From: Chloroflexota bacterium
GTDB lineage: Bacteria; Chloroflexota; Dehalococcoidia; DSTF01; JACRBR01
DNA: 35,624 bases
Reading direction: 5' to 3'
NCBI GenBank assembly: GCA_028872875.1
Contig: JAGWOC010000029.1
Coordinates: 1-35,624, forward strand
In this document: piece after piece, positions 26,923 through 35,624 of the stretch
Numbering within the stretch: position 1 is the first letter of the stretch
How the letters are laid out: every line of letters starts with the position of its first letter
The notes under the pieces: generated by a model
Seen by the model: the letters and a program-made list of their open reading frames with translations, nothing else
What the model was told of the DNA's origin: nothing
Databases searched by the model: none
Made by a program: the position numbers and the translations under genes

Positions 26923-26951
26923 CCCGCCCCCGCCGCCACGGCCCCCCGCCG

Positions 26952-26981
26952 TTGACCATGCCGCTCCCCTATCCCTATAGT
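26952..26981 (+). promoter_or_regulatory. sigma-70-type promoter of the thiolase gene
   Basis: TTGACC (26952-26957), 18 bases, TATAGT (26976-26981), about 40 bases before the ATG, with GGAGG in the expected place. The thiolase is therefore transcribed separately from the sigma-factor module. Confidence 0.65.
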
Positions 26982-27024
26982 GTTCTTCGCACCTGGATTC
27001 GATTCGCCCCATCGGAGGTCCGTC

Positions 27025-28200
27025 ATGGAAGAGGTCGTCATCGTCAGCGGCGCCCGGACGCCCATCGGGAGGTTCCAGGGCGCCTACGCCAACCTCTCGG
27101 CATCGGACCTCGGTGCCATCGTCATCAGGGCCGCCGTCGAACGGGCGGGCCTCGACCCCGGCCACGTCGACCACGTCATCCTGGGCTGCGTCGGCCAGGT
27201 GATGGAGGACGGCTACATCGCCCGCCACGCCGCCGTCAAGGCCGGGATGCCGATCGAGACCCCTGCCCTCACCGTCAACCGTATCTGCGGCAGCGGCCTC
27301 GAAGCCATCAACACGGCCGGCCGCTACATCCAGTCCGGCGATGCCGGGGTCGTGGTTGCCGGCGGCGCCGAGAACATGACGATGATGCCGTACTACGTCC
27401 GCCAGGGCCGCACCGGCTACCGCATGGGAAACGGCGTCCTGGAGGACGGCATCCTCCACCTGCTCGGCGACCCCTTCAGCAAGCAGCACATGGGGATCAC
27501 CGCCGAGAACCTCGCCGAGAAGTACGAGGTCTCCCGCGAGGCGCAGGATGAGGTTGCGATGCGCTCGCAGGAGCGGGCCGCCGCCGCCATCGCCGCCGGC
27601 AGATTCAAGGACGAGATCGTGCCCGTCCAGGTGAAGGCCGGCAAGGAGACCGTCACCATCGACACCGACGAGCATCCCCGCCAGACCAGCATGGAGGCGC
27701 TCGGCAAGCTGCGCCCGGCGTTCAAGGACGGCGGCATGGTCACCGCCGGCAACGCCAGCGGCATCAACGACGGCGCCGCCGCCGTCGTCGTCGCCTCCGC
27801 CGCTCGCGCCCGCGAGCTCGGCCTCAAGCCACGCCTGCGCCTGGTGGCGCGCGCCGAGGCCGGCGTCGAGCCGTCGATCATGGGGAGCGGCCCGATCCCG
27901 GCCGTCCAGAAGGCGCTGCAGAAGGCCGGCCTGACCATCGATCAGATCGACCTGGTCGAGATCAACGAGGCGTTCGCCTCGGTCGCGGCGGCGTGCAGCA
28001 CGGCGCTCCGCCTCGACCCGGAGAAGACGAACGTGAACGGCGGTGCCATCGCCCTCGGCCACCCGCTCGGCGCCACCGGCGCCGTCCTCACGGTAAAGCT
28101 GATGTACGAGATGGAGCGCCGCGCCGCGCGCTACGGCCTGGTGACGCTCTGCATCGGCGGCGGCCAGGGCATCGCGTCCATCTTCGAGCGGGTCGCGTAG
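27025..28200 (+). CDS. thiolase (acetyl-CoA C-acyltransferase)
   Basis: Complete 391-residue thiolase. It condenses two acetyl-CoA or cleaves 3-ketoacyl-CoA in the cytoplasm. The nucleophile is Cys88 in VNRICGSGLEAI; GGAIALGHPLGATGA holds the catalytic His, and TLCIGGGQG the second Cys. NEAFASVAA is the usual substrate-pocket block. GGAGG lies seven bases before the ATG at 27025, behind its own promoter. No other beta-oxidation or polyhydroxybutyrate gene is nearby, so the direction of use cannot be told. Confidence 0.95.
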   Translation: MEEVVIVSGARTPIGRFQGAYANLSASDLGAIVIRAAVERAGLDPGHVDHVILGCVGQVMEDGYIARHAAVKAGMPIETPALTVNRICGSGLEAINTAGRYIQSGDAGVVVAGGAENMTMMPYYVRQGRTGYRMGNGVLEDGILHLLGDPFSKQHMGITAENLAEKYEVSREAQDEVAMRSQERAAAAIAAGRFKDEIVPVQVKAGKETVTIDTDEHPRQTSMEALGKLRPAFKDGGMVTAGNASGINDGAAAVVVASAARARELGLKPRLRLVARAEAGVEPSIMGSGPIPAVQKALQKAGLTIDQIDLVEINEAFASVAAACSTALRLDPEKTNVNGGAIALGHPLGATGAVLTVKLMYEMERRAARYGLVTLCIGGGQGIASIFERVA

Positions 28201-28494
28201 GCGCCCACTGCCGGCGACCGCGCGGAAGGCGCGGACCGACGCGGCGTGTCGCAGTTCCTACCGTAAAGTGGCTCGAAGCATGTGTATCGTAGCGAGGCAG
28301 CCGCCGCGGCGGCCCGAATCCCGGCCGGGAGCCTCCGCGCCATGACACCCCCCAAACTCTTTCGCATGTATGCGAGGAAGCAGGCGCCTTAGCGGCTGCC
28401 CGGGCGCCGTCCCGGATTCGAATTATGATCGCAGACGAGGAAGCCGCTGGCGCCGGCTCGACGCTGATCCGCAGTGCCGGCGGGCCAGGCGGGG
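28201..28494. other. intergenic stretch after the thiolase gene
   Basis: No gene. Short frames without family resemblance. The section 28270-28400 has several small palindromes (CCGCCGCGGCGG) and a lower G+C pocket near 28350-28385 that may hold a terminator, but there is no T-tract. The promoter for the 3D-domain protein gene begins at the right end. Confidence 0.6.
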
Positions 28495-28522
28495 TTGACC
28501 TCCCGGGTTCGGAGGGTATAAT
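28495..28522 (+). promoter_or_regulatory. near-consensus sigma-70 promoter
   Basis: TTGACC (28495-28500), 16 bases, TATAAT (28517-28522): the best promoter in the window. It drives the 3D-domain gene through a ~95-base leader. Confidence 0.8.
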
Positions 28523-28535
28523 CCGCCTGTTTTGC

Positions 28536-28576
28536 GCCCTCGCGCCTGGTGGCGAGGGCCGCCCGCCCACGGCGGG
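28536..28576 (+). promoter_or_regulatory. two tandem hairpins in the 3D-gene leader
   Basis: Stem GCCCTCGC (28536-28543) with GCGAGGGC (28552-28559), then CCCGCC (28562-28567) with GGCGGG (28571-28576) and TTT right after. The second is like a short intrinsic terminator and could serve attenuation, but three T residues make it weak. Confidence 0.5.
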
Positions 28577-28621
28577 TTTCGGGCATGTTCTGGCCCCGGG
28601 TTCGTTCACAAGGAGGGCTCT

Positions 28622-29497
28622 CTGAGATACCGAGGATTCGTTGCGGGCGCCCGCGCGGCCATGATGGTCGCCGGCACTGCCGCCGCGGTCGGCATGGCGC
28701 TCGTCAACGAGCGGAGGCCGCAGCCGGTCTTCGCCGAGGCATTCCCGCAGCCGAAGCCGCTCGTCGCCGGGATTGGCGCACGCGTCGGCCAACTTCCGAA
28801 CGCACGTGAAGCCGTCGGCCGCCGGTTCGTCTCCGCGGCCCTCATCGGTGTCGCCGTGATCCTGCTGGCGGCATCGATCCCCGCCATGACGGCGCTAATC
28901 AGCAGCATCCGGTCGTCCTCGTCTCCCGCGCGGCCCCTCTACGGACCGCCGGCCGAGCTGCGCGCCGCCTCCGGCGTGGCGGGTGACTGGGCGCGGTCCG
29001 CCAGCGATGCCGCGCCACCCGCGCCGCAGCTTGGCGCCGCGGTGATGGCGGCGGCCGCCGAGGCGGAGCGCTGGCAGCAGGTGAAGGCCCTCGTTACGAT
29101 CGCGCACGAGCGCGAGGCCCAGCAGCGGGCGCTGGCGAGCCAGCGGGCCGGGGCTGGCGCACCGTACAGCGTCAACGCGGCCTCGGGCTACGCGCCAGGC
29201 ACCGTGCTGTTGTCGCGCATCACGATCTACGGCTGTACCGGTCCAGGCGGCGGCTACTGCAACCGGATGTCGAGCGGCGGCGAGCCCTTCGCCGGTGCAG
29301 CGGCCTGTAGTTCCAACCTGGCCTTCGGCACCAAGCTGAAGATCGATGGCGACCCGACCGGGCGCACCTACGAGTGCCTCGACCGCGGCATGCTCTCGCC
29401 GACCTGGGTCGACGTGTACTTCAGCGACACGTCGGACGGCATGGCCTGGCAGCGCCAGCTCGGCTCGACCATGTCCAGGATCCACATCGTCAACTAG
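28622..29497 (+). CDS. membrane-anchored 3D-domain cell-wall protein
   Basis: Protein of about 291 residues. A short basic N-terminus and a first hydrophobic stretch (ARAAMMVAGTAAAVGMALV) are followed by a second membrane helix near 70-95 (FVSAALIGVAVILLAASI). A helical, Gln- and Glu-rich part (AEAERWQQVKALVTIAHEREAQQ) follows. The C-terminal ~90 residues match the 3D/double-psi barrel of MltA-like and Rpf-associated wall hydrolases: TIYGCTGPGGGYCNRM, then ECLDRG and VDVYFSD with the aspartates. It probably acts on peptidoglycan outside the membrane. AAGGAGG is followed after five bases by CTG at 28622; the first usual codon, ATG 28661, has no such site, so CTG is preferred. Confidence 0.8.
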   Translation: MRYRGFVAGARAAMMVAGTAAAVGMALVNERRPQPVFAEAFPQPKPLVAGIGARVGQLPNAREAVGRRFVSAALIGVAVILLAASIPAMTALISSIRSSSSPARPLYGPPAELRAASGVAGDWARSASDAAPPAPQLGAAVMAAAAEAERWQQVKALVTIAHEREAQQRALASQRAGAGAPYSVNAASGYAPGTVLLSRITIYGCTGPGGGYCNRMSSGGEPFAGAAACSSNLAFGTKLKIDGDPTGRTYECLDRGMLSPTWVDVYFSDTSDGMAWQRQLGSTMSRIHIVN

Positions 29498-29779
29498 CTG
29501 CCGACTATGTGGGCGCACGCGCGCGTTCGGGCTGAGGCTGCGAGCGGCGCTGCTGTGATGGCCCCGCCATCGCGCCGCGGCCGGACCGTGCCCACGCACC
29601 TCGGCACCGAAGAAGGCCAGCGAAGGGCGCGATCCCCCGTTGTCAATCATGAGAGATTACCGTTACGCAGGAGCGCGCAGAGCGCACATTCCGGCAGATG
29701 CGAATGCGGGACGCCCGCGTTACGGATTGGAGAACCCACATGCGTAACGATCACGCCTACGCGACCGAAGTTCGACCCG
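29498..29779. other. intergenic stretch with CGTTACG sites
   Basis: No gene. CGTTACG occurs at 29661-29667 and 29718-29724, and its complement CGTAACG at 29743-29749, making an inverted repeat with 25-base spacing. The base composition is lower in G+C than the surroundings. The sites lie upstream of the TTGACA promoter, a place for an activator or repressor. Confidence 0.5.
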
Positions 29780-29809
29780 TTGACAACAAGCCATAACCTG
29801 TGTTGCAAT
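29780..29809 (+). promoter_or_regulatory. candidate promoter of the long leader
   Basis: TTGACA (29780-29785), 18 bases, TGCAAT (29804-29809). The -35 box is perfect, the -10 box matches four of six. A transcript starting here would carry a leader of about 500 bases with all the helices described below. Confidence 0.4.
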
Positions 29810-29820
29810 TGCCGCCGAGG

Positions 29821-29962
29821 TCCCCTCGATGCGGGGACAGCGGCCACGATTCAGCGCAAGGATTGTCGAGTCGGGGCATCGAAGGCGGCAGAGGTGGGCT
29901 GTTCTTCTCCGATGCAGGGTGGGGGCAAGTCTCGACTGAACATCCCGAAACGCGTTGGGATG
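29821..29962 (+). ncRNA. structured region, upstream half of the leader
   Basis: Four helices: TCCCC/GGGGA (29821-29825, 29833-29837); GTCGAG/CTCGAC (29865-29870, 29931-29936), enclosing GCATCG/CGATGC (29876-29881, 29910-29915); CATCCC/GGGATG (29941-29946, 29957-29962). No reading frame fits. It could be part of the leader or a separate RNA; the class is not recognised. Confidence 0.4.
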
Positions 29963-30132
29963 CCCTGCGGGGCGGTCGTCCGCGCCTCGTCCCTGATCTG
30001 ACCTAACCTAGCGCCTGCCTCTCCGATCGCATGCGAGGCGCGAACCCGCGCGGGCGGCTCGCTCCTTGTCCACTCGCGGTTCCTGCACGTGCCGCCCGCA
30101 GCCACGCGCGTGCGCCGGGGTCGCCGGGCGAA

Positions 30133-30323
30133 GGGAGGTGAGGACGCTGCCAAGCACAACCGAATAGAGGCCCCACCGGGGTTGGATCCCGGCAGGGCCA
30201 AGGACATAGGCAGGTCGAGCCACACCCAGTCCGTGGAGATTATCGCCTCCCGGCTGGCAGCGCGGCAAGAATCTCGTTGACAGACAGGGCGGAGCCGCGT
30301 GCGGCTCTGCGCCCGATGGGAGG
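30133..30323 (+). ncRNA. candidate riboswitch-like leader RNA
   Basis: Nested helices: GGGAGG (30133-30138) with CCTCCC (30246-30251); GGAC (30142-30145) with GTCC (30229-30232); CTGCC (30147-30151) with GGCAG (30209-30213); GGCCC (30169-30173) with GGGCC (30195-30199); CCGGG (30176-30180) with CCCGG (30188-30192), loop GTTGGAT. Single-stranded joints are A-rich (AAGCACAACCGAATAGA and AAGGACATA), as in ligand pockets. The Shine-Dalgarno GGGAGG (30318-30323) is identical to the 5' strand of the closing helix, so CCTCCC can pair with either. A further hairpin GAGCCG/CGGCTC lies at 30292-30307. It does not match any riboswitch class I can recall. Confidence 0.5.
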
Positions 30324-30331
30324 AACAACAC

Positions 30332-30718
30332 GTGATGCGATCATTGAAGCGGGCGCGCCTGTTCGGCGCGGTCGCCCTTGCGGTCGTGGTCGGCGGCGCC
30401 GCCTTCGCCTTCACGGCGGCGAACACGGTCCCCGACTCCAACGCCGGTCAGGGGACCGGCAACGTCAACGGCTACACGGTCAGCAACATCCACTACACCT
30501 ACGGCTCGCCGGCGCCCAACTCGCAGGACGTCGACACGGTCAGCTTCACGCTGAGCGCCCCGGCGGCCTCGGCGAATGTATCGCTTGATGGCGGCAGCGG
30601 CTGGCAGGGTCCGGCCTCGTGCACGAACCCCTCGGCCAACGACTGGACGTGCGACGTCCAGAGCCTCGGCGTGGCGCTGAGCAAGGTCGTCGCACTCGAC
30701 GTCGCGGCGGCGCAATAG
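30332..30718 (+). CDS. small secreted SipW-type substrate protein
   Basis: Protein of about 128 residues with a basic start, a hydrophobic signal (LFGAVALAVVVGGAAFAFTA) and then NTVPDSNAGQGTGNVNGYTV, followed by Ser/Thr-rich beta strands (VDTVSFTLSAPAASANVSLDGG). This pattern is typical of proteins with SipW-dependent signals, the class that includes the TasA and camelysin fibre subunits, but the protein is much shorter. It is probably cleaved by the peptidase of the next gene. GTG 30332 is preferred over ATG 30335 because of its spacing of about eight bases from GGAGG; both are in frame. Two cysteines (CTNPSANDWTC) may form a disulfide. It is controlled by the leader RNA upstream. Confidence 0.8.
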   Translation: MMRSLKRARLFGAVALAVVVGGAAFAFTAANTVPDSNAGQGTGNVNGYTVSNIHYTYGSPAPNSQDVDTVSFTLSAPAASANVSLDGGSGWQGPASCTNPSANDWTCDVQSLGVALSKVVALDVAAAQ

Positions 30719-30726
30719 GGCAGCGT

Positions 30727-30766
30727 CGCCGGAGGCGGGAGCCGCTGCGGGCTCCCGCCTCCGGCG
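30727..30766 (+). terminator. 17-bp intercistronic hairpin
   Basis: Perfect inverted repeat: CGCCGGAGGCGGGAGCC (30727-30743) with its complement (30750-30766) and a 6-base loop. No T-tract follows, so it is more likely to reduce read-through or stabilise the upstream mRNA than to be a complete terminator. It sits between the secreted substrate gene and the signal peptidase gene and could make the substrate the more abundant product. Confidence 0.65.
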
Positions 30767-30784
30767 CGCGAAGAGGAGCGGGCG

Positions 30785-32341
30785 ATGCGCACGTGGTATG
30801 CGGCCCCGGGAATCGCGCTGGTGGTGGCGCTGGCAGTGCTGGCGTGGCTGGCCTTCGCGCCCGCCGGACTGGGTGGGCGCGATGCCTACGTCATCACCTC
30901 CGGTGTCAGCATGCAGCCGCGCTTTCACACGGGCGACCTCGCGATCGTCCGGCGCGCGAGCCACTACCAGGTCGGCGAGATCGTCGCCTACCACGACCCC
31001 GCGATCGGCCGCATCCTCCACCGCATCATCGCCCGGGACGGCGACCGCTTTGTGATGAAGGGAGACAACAACTCCTTCATCGATGCCTATCACCCGACGT
31101 CAGCGGAGATCGTGGGCCGGCTCTGGCTGCACGTGCCCGCGGCCGGACGCGTGCTCGTCGCGCTGCGGCAGCCAGCGTGGGCCGCGGCCGCAGCGACGCT
31201 CAGCATGCTCCTGTTCGCCGCGCCGATCGCCGGCGAGCGACGGCGGCGCGGCGCCCGAACGACGCACCGGCACGCCGGCGCCGGCGTGGCGGTGCTCGGG
31301 CCCGCGGGCCAGGTCGCCGCCGTCGCGCTCTGCCTCGTCGCGCTGGCCGGGGCGGCGCTCGCCGTCGTCGCGTTCCGGCGTGGCAGCACGCACACCGCGC
31401 TGGTGCCCGTCGCGTACGAGCAGAAGGGCGCCTTCAGCTACACCGCCCCGGCGCCCGGCGTCTATGCGTCGGGCCAGGCCGCCACAGGCCAGCCCGTCTT
31501 CCCGGCGCTCGCCTCGCGCGTCGACCTGACGTTCGCCTACCAGATCAACTCGGTGCTGCCGGTCATCGCGAAGGGCTCCTACCAGGTCGATGCCGTCGTC
31601 CGCGGCCAGGACGGATGGACGCGGACACTGCCGTTGGTGCCGCCGACGCCCTTCAGCGCGGACCACTTCCAAACGTCGGCCGTGCTCGACCTCAAGCAGC
31701 TCCTGGATCTGATCAACGTCACACAGGAAAGGACGGGCGTCCAGCAGCGCCGGGTCTCGGTTGCCATCGCACCGAGCGTCAACGTCGCGGGCACGGTCGG
31801 CGGCGCGCCGTTGAAGGAGACGTTTGCGCCGGATCTTGGCTTCGTCTTCGACCCCGGCGAGCTGCAGGTCGACCGCTCACAGCCGCAGGGGGCGAACCCC
31901 TACGGGAGCGATCCCTTCGCCCCCAAGACGTCCGGCACCGCGCGCCAGTCGCGCGTCGTCGCCAGCCAGCTCTCTCTGGCGGGCCTGCGTATCGGCGTCG
32001 GGGCTGCCCGCCGCCTCGCGGAGGCGGGCCTCGCCCTCGCGGCGATCGGCGCCGTCGCCTTCTTCGTGCTCCTGCGCCGCGCCGCAGGCGCCGACGAGCC
32101 CGCCCGCATCCGCGCGAAGTACGGCGCGCTCCTCGTCTCGCTGCGCGCCTCCGGCCTCGCCGACTCTGCGCGCGTGGTCGATGTCAGCACGTTCGAAGAC
32201 CTCGTCCGCATCGCCGACCGTTCGGACCGCATGATCTTGCACCAGCAGCGCGGCGCGATGCGCGAGTACTTCCTGGCGGACGCAGAGGTGACGTACCGGT
32301 ACACGGCCGGCCCCGTCCGCGGCGGCGAGGAGGTGCCCTGA
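30785..32341 (+). CDS. SipW-type signal peptidase I fused to DUF5305-like domain
   Basis: Protein of 518 residues. The first ~130 form an ER/archaeal-type signal peptidase: an N-terminal membrane helix, the nucleophile Ser42 in TSGVSMQP, His79 in RILHRI in place of the bacterial Lys, and Asp94 in MKGDNNS. This Ser-His-Asp set is that of SipW and Sec11. Helices at about 160-175 and 190-210 follow. The remainder resembles DUF5305 of archaea: ALVPVAYEQKGAFSYTAPAPG, VDLTFAYQIN, DGWTRTLPLV, ETFAPDLGFVF, then a further helix and a cytoplasmic tail. In archaea the two are often adjacent genes; here they are one chain. GAGGAG lies six bases before the ATG. Confidence 0.88.
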   Translation: MRTWYAAPGIALVVALAVLAWLAFAPAGLGGRDAYVITSGVSMQPRFHTGDLAIVRRASHYQVGEIVAYHDPAIGRILHRIIARDGDRFVMKGDNNSFIDAYHPTSAEIVGRLWLHVPAAGRVLVALRQPAWAAAAATLSMLLFAAPIAGERRRRGARTTHRHAGAGVAVLGPAGQVAAVALCLVALAGAALAVVAFRRGSTHTALVPVAYEQKGAFSYTAPAPGVYASGQAATGQPVFPALASRVDLTFAYQINSVLPVIAKGSYQVDAVVRGQDGWTRTLPLVPPTPFSADHFQTSAVLDLKQLLDLINVTQERTGVQQRRVSVAIAPSVNVAGTVGGAPLKETFAPDLGFVFDPGELQVDRSQPQGANPYGSDPFAPKTSGTARQSRVVASQLSLAGLRIGVGAARRLAEAGLALAAIGAVAFFVLLRRAAGADEPARIRAKYGALLVSLRASGLADSARVVDVSTFEDLVRIADRSDRMILHQQRGAMREYFLADAEVTYRYTAGPVRGGEEVP

Positions 32342-33300
32342 TGCGCTGGACCGTGCCGCGGCTGGCGGCGGTCGCGGTGCTGCTGCTGGTCGGCGCCAGC
32401 GCCGTGATTGGCTACACCGCGGGGATGGACGTGCCGGTGAGCTACCTTGGCCGCACCACCGTGCCCGTAACGCCGCCGCCGGCCGCCTTCACGGCTACGC
32501 CGTCGCCGCGGAGCTCGGCGACGGCGCGCGCGGTGGACGACGCGTCATCGACGCCCGCGGCCTCGGCAACGCCGGTCGCCTCCACCGCGACGCCAGCGGC
32601 CGTGGCCACCGCGAGCCCGACCGCCGCGGACACGCCGTCGTCTGTCCCCGGCACGCCGGTACCCGGGGCGCTGCGTCCCGCCCCCGGCAGCGCATCCCCG
32701 ACGCCCGTCGTGCTGGCGCCGCGCAGCGCGACACCATCGTTGGTGCTGGCGCCCCTGCCAGTGACGGCGACCCCGGCGCCGACGGCGAGCCAGACCTCGG
32801 CGCCGGCGGCGACGGCCACGCCGGCCATCTCACCGGCGCCGGCGCTGACCTTCGGCAACGCGGCGCCGGCGTTCTCGATTGACAGCTCCGACTACGCATA
32901 CCTCAATGGCTCAGACGCGACGCTTGCCTTCGCAGGCACGCTGCTGAGCCTCTCGGTGTACGTCGGTGCGACGGCGCCCGGTGCCCACCTCCGCCTTGCG
33001 CTGTATCGCGCGGACGCGACGGGCGATCCGGGCGCCCTGCTTGTCCAGACGCCCGCCACCGCCGCCGTCGTGGGCTGGAACACGCTGCCATCGCCGCCTC
33101 TTGCGCTCGCCGCAGGCACGTACTGGATCGTGGCCCAGACCGACAGCCCGGCGACGGTGTATGGCTACACGACCGGGCCGCCGTCGGTGCGCTGGGGCTG
33201 GGCGCCGTACACCTACGGCCCCTTCCCCGTGTCCGCCGGGCCGTGGCAACTCCAGGCCGGCCACAGCTTCGCGATGTACGGCACCGTGGCCGGGACGTAG
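32341..33300 (+). CDS. Pro/Thr/Ala-rich surface protein with C-terminal beta-sandwich
   Basis: Protein of 319 residues. A membrane helix (AAVAVLLLVGASAVIGYTA) anchors a linker of ~130 residues (40-170) made of Ala, Thr, Pro and Ser repeats (TPVASTATPAAVATASPT), probably glycosylated and extended through the wall. The C-terminal ~145 residues form a beta-rich domain: LLSLSVYVGATAPGAHLRLALYRADATGDPG, then AAGTYWIVAQTDSP. This resembles the choice-of-anchor or carbohydrate-binding modules of surface proteins. The ATG overlaps the peptidase stop (TGATG), so it completes a three-gene operon. Sequence bias may exaggerate similarity; function unknown. Confidence 0.8.
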   Translation: MRWTVPRLAAVAVLLLVGASAVIGYTAGMDVPVSYLGRTTVPVTPPPAAFTATPSPRSSATARAVDDASSTPAASATPVASTATPAAVATASPTAADTPSSVPGTPVPGALRPAPGSASPTPVVLAPRSATPSLVLAPLPVTATPAPTASQTSAPAATATPAISPAPALTFGNAAPAFSIDSSDYAYLNGSDATLAFAGTLLSLSVYVGATAPGAHLRLALYRADATGDPGALLVQTPATAAVVGWNTLPSPPLALAAGTYWIVAQTDSPATVYGYTTGPPSVRWGWAPYTYGPFPVSAGPWQLQAGHSFAMYGTVAGT

Positions 33301-33389
33301 CTCATCTGCGACCGGCGGGAGCGCCACCGGCGTGTGCCGCACCCGCGGGACGCGGCGGGCAGCGCCCGCCACCCAGCCTTCGCCTGCGC

Positions 33390-33395
33390 TATCCT
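33390..33395 (+). promoter_or_regulatory. -10 box of the endonuclease III gene, probably leaderless
   Basis: TATCCT, seven bases, then ATG at 33403. It replaces a Shine-Dalgarno site, none being visible. No -35 box recognised. Confidence 0.45.
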
Positions 33396-33402
33396 GCGCG
33401 CG

Positions 33403-34218
33403 ATGCCCCGCACACGGCCCAGCGCCGAGACCCTGAAGCAGCGACTGAATGTCGCCCGCATCCCGGAGATCATCGCCCGCCTCGATGACGCTTACGGCCT
33501 GCCGGAATGGCGCCCGCACCACGACGCCATCTCCGAGCTGGTGCTCACGATCCTCTCGCAGAACACGTCCGACGCCAACTCCGGCCGCGCCTTCGTGCGG
33601 CTGACCGAGGCGTTCCCCGCCTGGGACGATGTCGCGTCGGCGCCGCTCGGCGCGCTGGTCGCCGCCATCCAGCCCGGCGGCCTCGCGCCGACGAAGGCGC
33701 CGCGCATCCAGGGGGCGCTGCGCGACATCAAGGAGCGCACCGGCGGCTACGACCTCCAGTTCCTCACCGGACTGCCGCTCGAGGAGGCGCGCGCCTGGCT
33801 GCGCAGCATCCACGGCGTCGGCCCGAAGACCGCCGCCTGCGTGCTGATGTTCGCCCTCGGCCGCCCGGCGATGCCCGTCGATACGCACGTCTTCCGGGTC
33901 GCCACGCGCCTGGCGCTCATCCCCGAGCGCGCGGGCCGGGCGAGGATGACGCCGGAGAAGGCCCATGAGCTGCTCGAAGCGCAGGTGCCGCCGCGGGACT
34001 TCTACGCCTTCCACATCGCCCTCATCAAGCACGGACGGCGCGTCTGCACGGCCCAGCGGCCCCGCTGCCCGGAGTGCGTCCTCCGCGACCTCTGCCCCGC
34101 CGCCGCGGTCTTCCATCCGGAGCTGGCCGGCGCGGACCGGGGCCCGGCCCGGGCTGCCGCAATGGTGGGAACATCGCCGCGAAAGACCCCTTCGCAAGCG
34201 CCGCGAACGGGTGTATGA
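33403..34218 (+). CDS. nth: endonuclease III family DNA glycosylase
   Basis: Base-excision repair glycosylase/AP lyase of 271 residues acting on oxidised pyrimidines. The helix-hairpin-helix is LRSIHGVGPKTAACVLM with the catalytic Lys142; the catalytic Asp160 is in MPVDTHVFRVATRL. A C-terminal [4Fe-4S] site is complete: Cys215, Cys222, Cys225 and Cys231, with the classic 6-2-5 spacing. LVLTILSQNTSD is the usual N-terminal block. A basic tail of ~35 residues follows the cluster; the last ~15 residues (GTSPRKTPSQAPRTGV) look unconserved. ATG 33403 lies seven bases after a -10 box. Confidence 0.95.
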   Translation: MPRTRPSAETLKQRLNVARIPEIIARLDDAYGLPEWRPHHDAISELVLTILSQNTSDANSGRAFVRLTEAFPAWDDVASAPLGALVAAIQPGGLAPTKAPRIQGALRDIKERTGGYDLQFLTGLPLEEARAWLRSIHGVGPKTAACVLMFALGRPAMPVDTHVFRVATRLALIPERAGRARMTPEKAHELLEAQVPPRDFYAFHIALIKHGRRVCTAQRPRCPECVLRDLCPAAAVFHPELAGADRGPARAAAMVGTSPRKTPSQAPRTGV

Positions 34219-34560
34219 TCGCCCGGCGGTGCCGTCGCGCGACGTGGCGGCGAGCAGGAGGGGCGAGCAGGAGGGTTGATGATGAGACAGGCATCCCCAT
34301 CCGCACGAGACCCAGGCACGATCCTGCGCCCGGCGGCGATGCCGGGGCCCGCCGTCCGCGGGCCCGCCGGGAGCACCGGCCGGGCGAAACGCCACACCGT
34401 GCAGGTGCGCGCGAGCTTCCGTCGGCTGCCCCGCAGTGCCGGGGCGGCGGGCACCGCGCTGGACTCGCTGAGCTAGCGGAGCCGCCCGGGCGCCCCACCC
34501 TCCGGCCGCATGCGCCGCCGCGCGCGCGAGATGGGTGGCGGGGGACCGCGACCCGGCCCG
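34219..34560. other. gap between nth and the McrB-like gene
   Basis: Apart from a possible small reading frame at 34282, it holds no gene I can support. It is G+C-rich with short palindromes (GCGGGCCCGC-like) and no T-rich terminator. Confidence 0.5.
34282..34476 (+). CDS. possible 64-residue basic protein
   Basis: An open frame of 64 codons. AGGAGG (34269-34274) lies four and seven bases before the adjacent ATG codons at 34279 and 34282, which is good initiation context. The product (MRQASPSARDPGTILRPAA, then RAKRHTVQVRASFRRLPRS) is basic and of low complexity with no family match. Coding status is doubtful because G+C-rich DNA gives such frames easily. Confidence 0.3.
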   Translation: MRQASPSARDPGTILRPAAMPGPAVRGPAGSTGRAKRHTVQVRASFRRLPRSAGAAGTALDSLS

Positions 34561-34590
34561 TTGACACCCACGGCAAGGTCCCGATACGCT
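34561..34590 (+). promoter_or_regulatory. promoter of the McrB-like gene
   Basis: TTGACA (34561-34566), 18 bases, TACGCT (34585-34590). The -35 box is perfect and the -10 box weak. The expected leader is short (about 20 bases), and no Shine-Dalgarno sequence precedes the ATG at 34615. Confidence 0.45.
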
Positions 34591-34614
34591 CGCGTCAACG
34601 AAACCGCGCCTGCG

Positions 34615-35624
34615 ATGCAGGAGCCTACCTGCGCGCGGCCCGGCGAGGGCGATGTGGGCCTGGAACCACTGCTAGACATCGCCATGCACGGCGCGGCCGA
34701 CTGGGCGCCGGCGAATCAGGCTGCGTTCGAAGCGCTGTTCGGTTCCGGCGACGGCCGCTATCCGGCGGCGGCGAAGGACACAGTGGCGCTTCGTCCGGCA
34801 GCGGCGAGCAATGAGTCGGGTGTGCCGTATGTGGGTTACATCCACCCGAGCAACCCTACGTCCGGCCAGTACGGCGGCATGTCGATCGCAATCTTCCCAG
34901 CACCGGGGGCGCGCTGTCTGGTGACGTTCGTTGTCGGCACCGCTGGCCTCCATCCGGACGACGAGATACTGGGCCGACCCGGGCACGCGCGCAAGGTGCA
35001 GGCGCTCTGCGGCTGGTTGAATGCTGCGCACGGCCGCGGCAGGCAGGTGGCATGGGCCAAGCAGGATCCCACGCGCACGGACGAGAATGTTCCGGCGACT
35101 GTCATCTCGCACTTCGAACCCTACAAGCGCGTCTTCGATCGATACGGCAAGGTGCTCTACGGGATTTACGCGCCTGGGGACGACGCACAGCTCACGATGG
35201 AGGCACTGAAGGCATTCTTCGATCTCATGTTCGCTGAGCGGGGAGTCAAGCCGCTTGTGCCCCTACGGCCCGAGGCAGGAGCGATCCGAGACGCATGGCT
35301 CAATCATTTGATGCCCGACCTGTCCGAGGACGATGTGATCGCTCTGCTTGAAGCGCGGCGCTTCGTGATCGTCGAGGGGCCGCCCGGTACCGGCAAGACC
35401 CGCCTGGCGCGACGCCTGCTTGCCTGCCAGTACGCCGGGCGGGGCACGTCGATCCAGTTCCACCCGAACACGACCTACGAAAACTTCGTCGGTGGATTGG
35501 CCCCAACCCGGACGTCGGAAGGCGTCGGGCTGAGCTTCGCGCCGCAGCCCGGCTTTCTCATGCAAGCCGCCCAGGCGGCTCGAGACGACCCTGCACTTCC
35601 ATACATTCTCCACGTCGACGAAAT
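34615..35624 (+). CDS. McrB-like AAA+ NTPase, 5' part
   Basis: The frame runs off the right edge after 336 complete codons. Residues 1-235 are an unfamiliar N-terminal domain (GYIHPSNPTSGQYGGMSIAIF, then ISHFEPYKRVFDRYGKVLYG). It has a plausible mixed alpha/beta pattern and might be a target-recognition or adaptor domain. Walker A is GPPGTGKT (255-262), followed by IQFHPNTTYENFVGGLAP, FAPQPGFLMQAAQAA and a final HVDE that should be Walker B. These blocks are those of the McrB motor of type IV restriction and its relatives. A nuclease partner (McrC-type) is expected beyond the window. The start is the ATG at 34615; GTG 34654 is an alternative with GAGGG ahead of it. Confidence 0.85.
   Translation, partial: MQEPTCARPGEGDVGLEPLLDIAMHGAADWAPANQAAFEALFGSGDGRYPAAAKDTVALRPAAASNESGVPYVGYIHPSNPTSGQYGGMSIAIFPAPGARCLVTFVVGTAGLHPDDEILGRPGHARKVQALCGWLNAAHGRGRQVAWAKQDPTRTDENVPATVISHFEPYKRVFDRYGKVLYGIYAPGDDAQLTMEALKAFFDLMFAERGVKPLVPLRPEAGAIRDAWLNHLMPDLSEDDVIALLEARRFVIVEGPPGTGKTRLARRLLACQYAGRGTSIQFHPNTTYENFVGGLAPTRTSEGVGLSFAPQPGFLMQAAQAARDDPALPYILHVDE

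Follow-up and report, generated by a model that had tools for sequence, protein, structure and literature searches.

Riboswitches that act on translation through strands complementary to the Shine-Dalgarno (SD) sequence are a general kind of regulatory leader. In the window (the whole stretch of 35,624 nt analysed here), the leader of an operon that encodes a secreted protein together with a SipW-like signal peptidase resembles them: two of its strands complement the SD region, and one of these is able to pair elsewhere. It differs from them in that a ligand, homologues and covariation are absent from the data, and in that its switching would follow from SD masking predicted in silico, which varies with the transcript ends. 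By position, the closest described systems are the c-di-GMP-I (RF01051) and c-di-GMP-I-GGC (RF03167) riboswitches at L081, L083, L091 and other loci, which also lie upstream of homologous secreted-protein genes, and two c-di-GMP-I leaders of the same genome have a 5' tag, ACAACCGAATA, in common with the window. Unlike the c-di-GMP-I and c-di-GMP-I-GGC leaders, the window leader has neither the aptamer core nor an Rfam match, and the hairpin with a T run found in 23 of the 25 c-di-GMP leaders of homologues is missing from it. The identical 11-nt tag also starts leaders from the same order that carry SAM-I, cobalamin, c-di-AMP or T-box elements (L216, L217, L230, L233 and others); however, each of these includes a recognised aptamer and, where the upstream DNA is complete, a recognisable sigma-70 promoter, and the window has neither.

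As judged by the tag and by the other leaders that begin with it, and not by the fold, the stretch before the SipW-substrate operon is very probably a regulatory RNA leader, and likely a riboswitch-type element, probably of a class outside Rfam. The full reading, in which this is the 5' leader of an islet-borne operon, starts at the tag and exerts riboswitch-type translational control, is given a probability of about 0.5. The features are as follows.

29504-33445, plus strand: islet with the leader and operon; right border approximate; flanks adjacent in same-genus G001 and close together in G002
30133-30138, plus strand: GGGAGG, 5' strand of the closing helix of the earlier note; probably promoter DNA from its position relative to the tag
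about 30156-30334 (179 nt), plus strand: remaining leader, with the tag, two hairpins and two alternative anti-SD strands
30156-30166, plus strand: ACAACCGAATA, conserved 5'-terminal 11-nt tag, an exact match to the tagged leaders; putative transcription start at 30156
30169-30199, plus strand: predicted hairpin 1, GGCCC/GGGCC with inner CCGGGGU/AUCCCGG; outer stem probability 0.95-1.00 at every transcript length tried
30202-30233, plus strand: possible hairpin 2, outer stem GGAC/GUCC, in the minimum free energy (MFE) fold of 30156-30251; lost in folds of longer transcripts
30236-30241, plus strand: GAGATT, can pair with AATCTC at 30270-30275 (complementarity only)
30246-30251, plus strand: CCTCCC, potential anti-SD strand, from sequence and predicted pairing
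30270-30278, plus strand: AATCTCGTT, alternative anti-SD strand; predicted folds of 30156-30334 and 30156-30345 have it paired with the SD region
30286-30313 (approximate to 1-2 nt), plus strand: predicted strong hairpin GGGCGGAGCCGC/GCGGCTCTGCGCCC, immediately 5' of the SD and with no T run
30318-30323, plus strand: SD sequence GGGAGG
30335-30718, plus strand: 127-aa secreted protein of the SipW-substrate type, with homologues and no Pfam match
30785-32341, plus strand: SipW-like signal peptidase fused to DUF5305 (Pfam Peptidase_S24 and DUF5305)
32341-33300, plus strand: third operon ORF, a Ser/Thr/Pro-rich exported protein with no relative in the loci compared

As predicted from sequence, the operon has the gene order of a SipW-substrate operon, in which the gene for a SipW-like signal peptidase comes after that for a small secreted substrate. 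The 3.9-kb islet was missing from two genomes of the same genus, G001 and G002. Its flanks, 26949-29503 and 33456-35624, adjoin in G001, where the aligned parts are 236 bp apart, and are close together in G002 too; the absence of the islet partly explains why no homologous leader was found. Relatives of the secreted protein were identified in another 17 of 197 genomes of the class, and at 69 loci that belong mostly to Anaerolineae and other Chloroflexota, with some in Actinomycetota and Acidobacteriota and a single one in a Saccharibacteria record. A second SipW-like signal peptidase (G000:C230:43513-45060; L157 3514-5061) is preceded by a tandem pair of small exported proteins, and the locus has no clear match to the leader model.

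Across the window, every Rfam 15 family stayed below its gathering score, and all matches in a permissive scan of 30000-30450 were far below gathering scores. The statement of the earlier note that its riboswitch-like fold could be matched to no class was thus borne out; known riboswitch, T-box and tRNA-like identities were considered and dropped, in agreement with the scan. Downstream of the tag, the scan recognised no riboswitch or T-box. A homologous leader was found neither in ~790 Chloroflexota genomes nor at the 69 loci with related secreted proteins; hence, there is no covariation to draw upon. A covariance model of 30133-30251 (R1) recovered itself only from 393 genomes of the class, and the six weak matches (E 0.1-0.6) that it gave when 400 genomes of the phylum were searched were dropped as their context looks protein-coding. 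The earlier note had proposed homologous leaders as the place to look for its helices, and the upstream regions of homologous genes gave nothing convincing with R1, which tells in part against that fold. A second model, of 30156-30251 (R2), found nothing except the tag. Searches with blastn of the leader in its own genome and 60 relatives returned short chance-like matches, the best-looking of which (L010) appears to lie inside a protein gene on the other strand. The leader DNA had no match in plasmids and only partial ones in phages (best listed 34 nt), and a decayed coding gene was rejected after no Pfam match was obtained in three overlapping frames.

The homologous operons are preceded by known riboswitches in many cases. 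A c-di-GMP-I, c-di-GMP-I-GGC or c-di-GMP-II-GAG riboswitch lies 98-482 nt before the matched gene at 25 of the 60 homologous loci scanned with Rfam, these 25 being from other Chloroflexota (L081, L082, L083, L085, L088, L091, L094, L104, L105, L107, L111 and 14 more), and none of the scanned Actinomycetota and Acidobacteriota loci has a known riboswitch upstream. A stable hairpin stands directly before a T run between aptamer and gene in 23 of the 25; that of L104 is inside the gene region, leaving 22 clean cases. These terminator-like hairpins indicate that the homologous operons concerned are probably under c-di-GMP control via transcription termination. The window leader occupies the slot, before secreted-protein genes, that is typical of c-di-GMP riboswitches. 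Its own genome has 13 GGDEF matches and three c-di-GMP-I riboswitches at other loci. Because c-di-GMP riboswitches probably govern homologous operons and the genome uses c-di-GMP, this nucleotide is the leading guess for the ligand, a guess that is drawn from the homologous operons. If the leader is a switch, it would be a sensor RNA in a slot filled by c-di-GMP riboswitches in relatives, which would give a head start on the ligand. No link between c-di-GMP riboswitches and SipW operons was found in the titles and abstracts of open-licence papers.

Genes homologous to those of the window are also found behind the leaders of Tepidiforma SipW-substrate operons (L043, L044, L046, L047, L049 and L077). 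Four of the six are G+C-rich with a possible anti-SD strand, CTCCAG opposite CTGGAGG; the Tepidiforma leaders differ from the window leader in that the R1 model was unmatched in the loci scanned and no tag was present in the upstream DNA inspected. A compact conserved pattern ~100 nt upstream of the gene, with no Rfam match in the leaders scanned, could be another leader of unknown type.

The tag was first spotted on comparing the three c-di-GMP-I loci of the genome, two of which begin with ACAACCGAATA. There are four exact copies in this genome: that of the window, those at the two c-di-GMP-I loci and one at a c-di-AMP riboswitch. The three outside the window (G000:C140:25738-25748, minus strand; C204:42880-42890, plus strand; C178:17527-17537, minus strand) all directly precede the riboswitch. 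Across 20 related genomes, 24 exact copies (L216-L239) were counted, as compared with 4 of a reversed control pattern; at 15 of the 24, a SAM, cobalamin, c-di-AMP, c-di-GMP or T-box leader begins with the tag. An Rfam match follows the tag directly in 10 cases, namely SAM (3), cobalamin (3), c-di-AMP (3) and c-di-GMP-I-GGC (1); the others are c-di-GMP-I (3, from the core or coordinates), cobalamin (1, from the core) and T-box (1, from GGGTGGCACCGCG). Among the 27 c-di-GMP-I loci of the order, 10 carry the tag with up to three mismatches, against 1 of 54 controls, and at c-di-GMP-I loci it stands a few nucleotides ahead of the aptamer. Outside the order, exact copies are mostly chance-like, with a few riboswitch cases. 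To the extent known, a fixed 5' sequence before unrelated aptamers is undescribed, and it may offer a route to unknown regulatory leaders in uncultured bacteria; no description was found in titles and abstracts of open-licence papers, which is weak evidence of novelty.

All 10 SAM, cobalamin, c-di-AMP and T-box cases whose upstream DNA is complete have a sigma-70 promoter that stops 5-9 nt short of the tag, with scores of 8.5-10.5, where the chance of a score of at least 8 is 1%. The tag is therefore the first part of the transcript in these leaders, and by analogy the window transcript should start near 30156. A promoter scan recognised no promoter before the tag of the window: the best site, TCGCCG-16-GACGCT, scores 5 against a null mean of 5.2, and the tagged c-di-GMP members are likewise without a sigma-70 site. 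Transcription probably starts at about 30156, judging from the related leaders.

With such a start, the RNA would retain a largely unpaired tag followed by the elements listed above. The predicted folds of 30156-30334 and 30156-30345 have the SD mostly masked by AAUCUCGUU (30270-30278) and not by CCUCCC, whose pairing with the SD is minor (probability 0.01-0.08); the predicted SD pairing shifts with transcript length. As no terminator was found in the leader, any control would be exerted on translation. In the proposed mechanism, the leader at about 30156-30334, with its start at ACAACCGAATA as seems to be the case for riboswitch and T-box leaders elsewhere in the order, would control the islet operon for a secreted fibre-type protein and the SipW-like signal peptidase. 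By default, the SD would be held largely by the 30270-30278 strand and less often by CCUCCC at 30246-30251. It would be freed by a change upstream that involves the hairpin at 30169-30199, the possible hairpin at 30202-30233 and GAGAUU at 30236-30241, the last being able to sequester AAUCUC. On these folding predictions, a translational switch in the RNA from 30156 is plausible, although its folding energy is unremarkable and the searches for homologues gave it no comparative backing.

The leader might instead be an ordinary long 5' UTR, with the tag as a shared initially transcribed sequence, no aptamer in 30167-30334, and expression set by the promoter and a static SD structure. With a z of -1.44 (-1.31 for 30156-30251), the RNA from 30156 shows no unusual stability, which fits this explanation, as does the lack of homologues among the sequences searched. 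The tag also stands ahead of leaders without a known riboswitch (L220, L221, L225, L228 and L235) and is thus no proof of an aptamer. However, the other three tag copies of the genome all belong to riboswitch leaders, and homologous operons are riboswitch-controlled, and an ordinary UTR is considered unlikely, if by no means negligible. An extension of the preferred reading, a riboswitch-type leader starting at the tag, would make ACAACCGAATA a general 5'-terminal RNA element of riboswitch and T-box transcripts in the order, perhaps a binding site for a factor with an effect on the elongating polymerase or the leader, and would at the same time make the window leader a new rare riboswitch class in this group, for c-di-GMP or another second messenger. 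That combination is speculative and rather doubtful as a whole. The shared tag raises the question of which factor reads it.

The model of the earlier note implies a start upstream of 30133, with P1 (GGGAGGUGA/UCGCCUCCC) closing an aptamer and CCUCCC alternating between P1 and the SD, so that aptamer formation would switch the operon on. The sequence elements that it named (GGGAGG twice, CCTCCC, GAGATT and AATCTC) are all present at the positions given above, and the complementarities between them are real. Its nested helices were also reproduced in the predicted fold of 30133-30251, which consists of P1 (9 bp), GAC/GUC with CUGCC/GGCAG, GGCCC/GGGCC, CCGGGGU/AUCCCGG and CCAC/GUGG. This fold has an MFE of -51.1 kcal/mol (z -2.61), and in a comparison with 1184 windows of 119 nt from both strands of the contig its z of -2.84 falls within the lowest 1.4%. 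GGGAGG followed by CCTCCC at least 60 bases on occurs once in the window, and the pattern of a hexamer, its reverse complement and the hexamer again has a base rate of 1.5% for any hexamer. The complement strand of 30133-30251 is nearly as stable (z -2.50), and the entire leader 30133-30334 is unremarkable (z -1.30). The arrangement is unusual at the ~1-3% level, which alone is not beyond chance and carries modest statistical weight. The P1 and CCUCCC:SD states of 30133-30334 have ensemble energies of -86.3 and -87.2, less than 1 kcal/mol apart; however, the balance varies with the transcript ends and is gone in longer transcripts (30050-30380 or 30000-30400), in which P1 is dominant and the SD is paired elsewhere. 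In 2-3% of trials, random or shuffled 23-mers put upstream matched the quality of this fold, and hence the closing helix can be a coincidence. The helices are kept in no homologue. Moreover, the tag at 30156-30166 falls inside what had been described as an A-rich joining strand, and it is the transcript start in related leaders. With a start at about 30156, GGGAGG at 30133-30138 would occupy about -23 to -18 of the promoter, and the RNA would lack the closing helix. The switch helix was therefore probably mis-bounded and seems to lie partly in untranscribed promoter DNA, and the mutual exclusion between CCTCCC and GGGAGG would be lost with it. What stands of the earlier description is an unrecognised riboswitch-like leader, unmatched in Rfam and carrying the tag of riboswitch and T-box leaders, with boundaries that are probably wrong; the original switch is improbable.

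A degenerate or variant c-di-GMP riboswitch beyond the recognition of Rfam would share its genomic slot with the c-di-GMP riboswitches of homologous operons and its tag with two c-di-GMP-I leaders of the genome. It is nevertheless very unlikely, with no match to c-di-GMP-I (RF01051) or c-di-GMP-II (RF01786, RF03169) at gathering score or up to E 10, and with the GGCAAA...CGCAAAG core of the three true copies in the genome missing from 30156-30334. Assignment of the structured element to an antisense RNA of the minus strand, where a promoter-like TTGCCG-18-GATAAT at 30268-30239 points out of the leader (9 of 12 matches; shuffle mean 0.0) and the fold is stable as noted above, is highly improbable, as the plus strand carries the tag at a position that makes sense for the operon, structured RNAs generally have structured complements, and no terminator was found.

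The riboswitch-type leader starting at the tag is thus retained as the preferred reading. Some further occurrences of the tag were recorded. At L228 (1501-1551), it stands ahead of a terminator-like hairpin followed by a surface-protein-like gene, and at L221 (from 1501), ahead of an unrecognised leader of a pilin-like gene. At L271 and L341, outside the order, the 11-mer comes immediately after a CTTTA boxA-like core and before an apparent 23S rRNA, perhaps by chance or perhaps in relation to antitermination. An identity of the tag with boxA was dropped, as in the order of the window the bases that precede it are promoter DNA where this can be judged. Upstream of tagged c-di-GMP-I riboswitches (L177, L178, L180, L182, L184 and L239), CAGATC-N12/13-GCCGATG was seen repeatedly by eye, and this is possibly the promoter of an alternative sigma factor.
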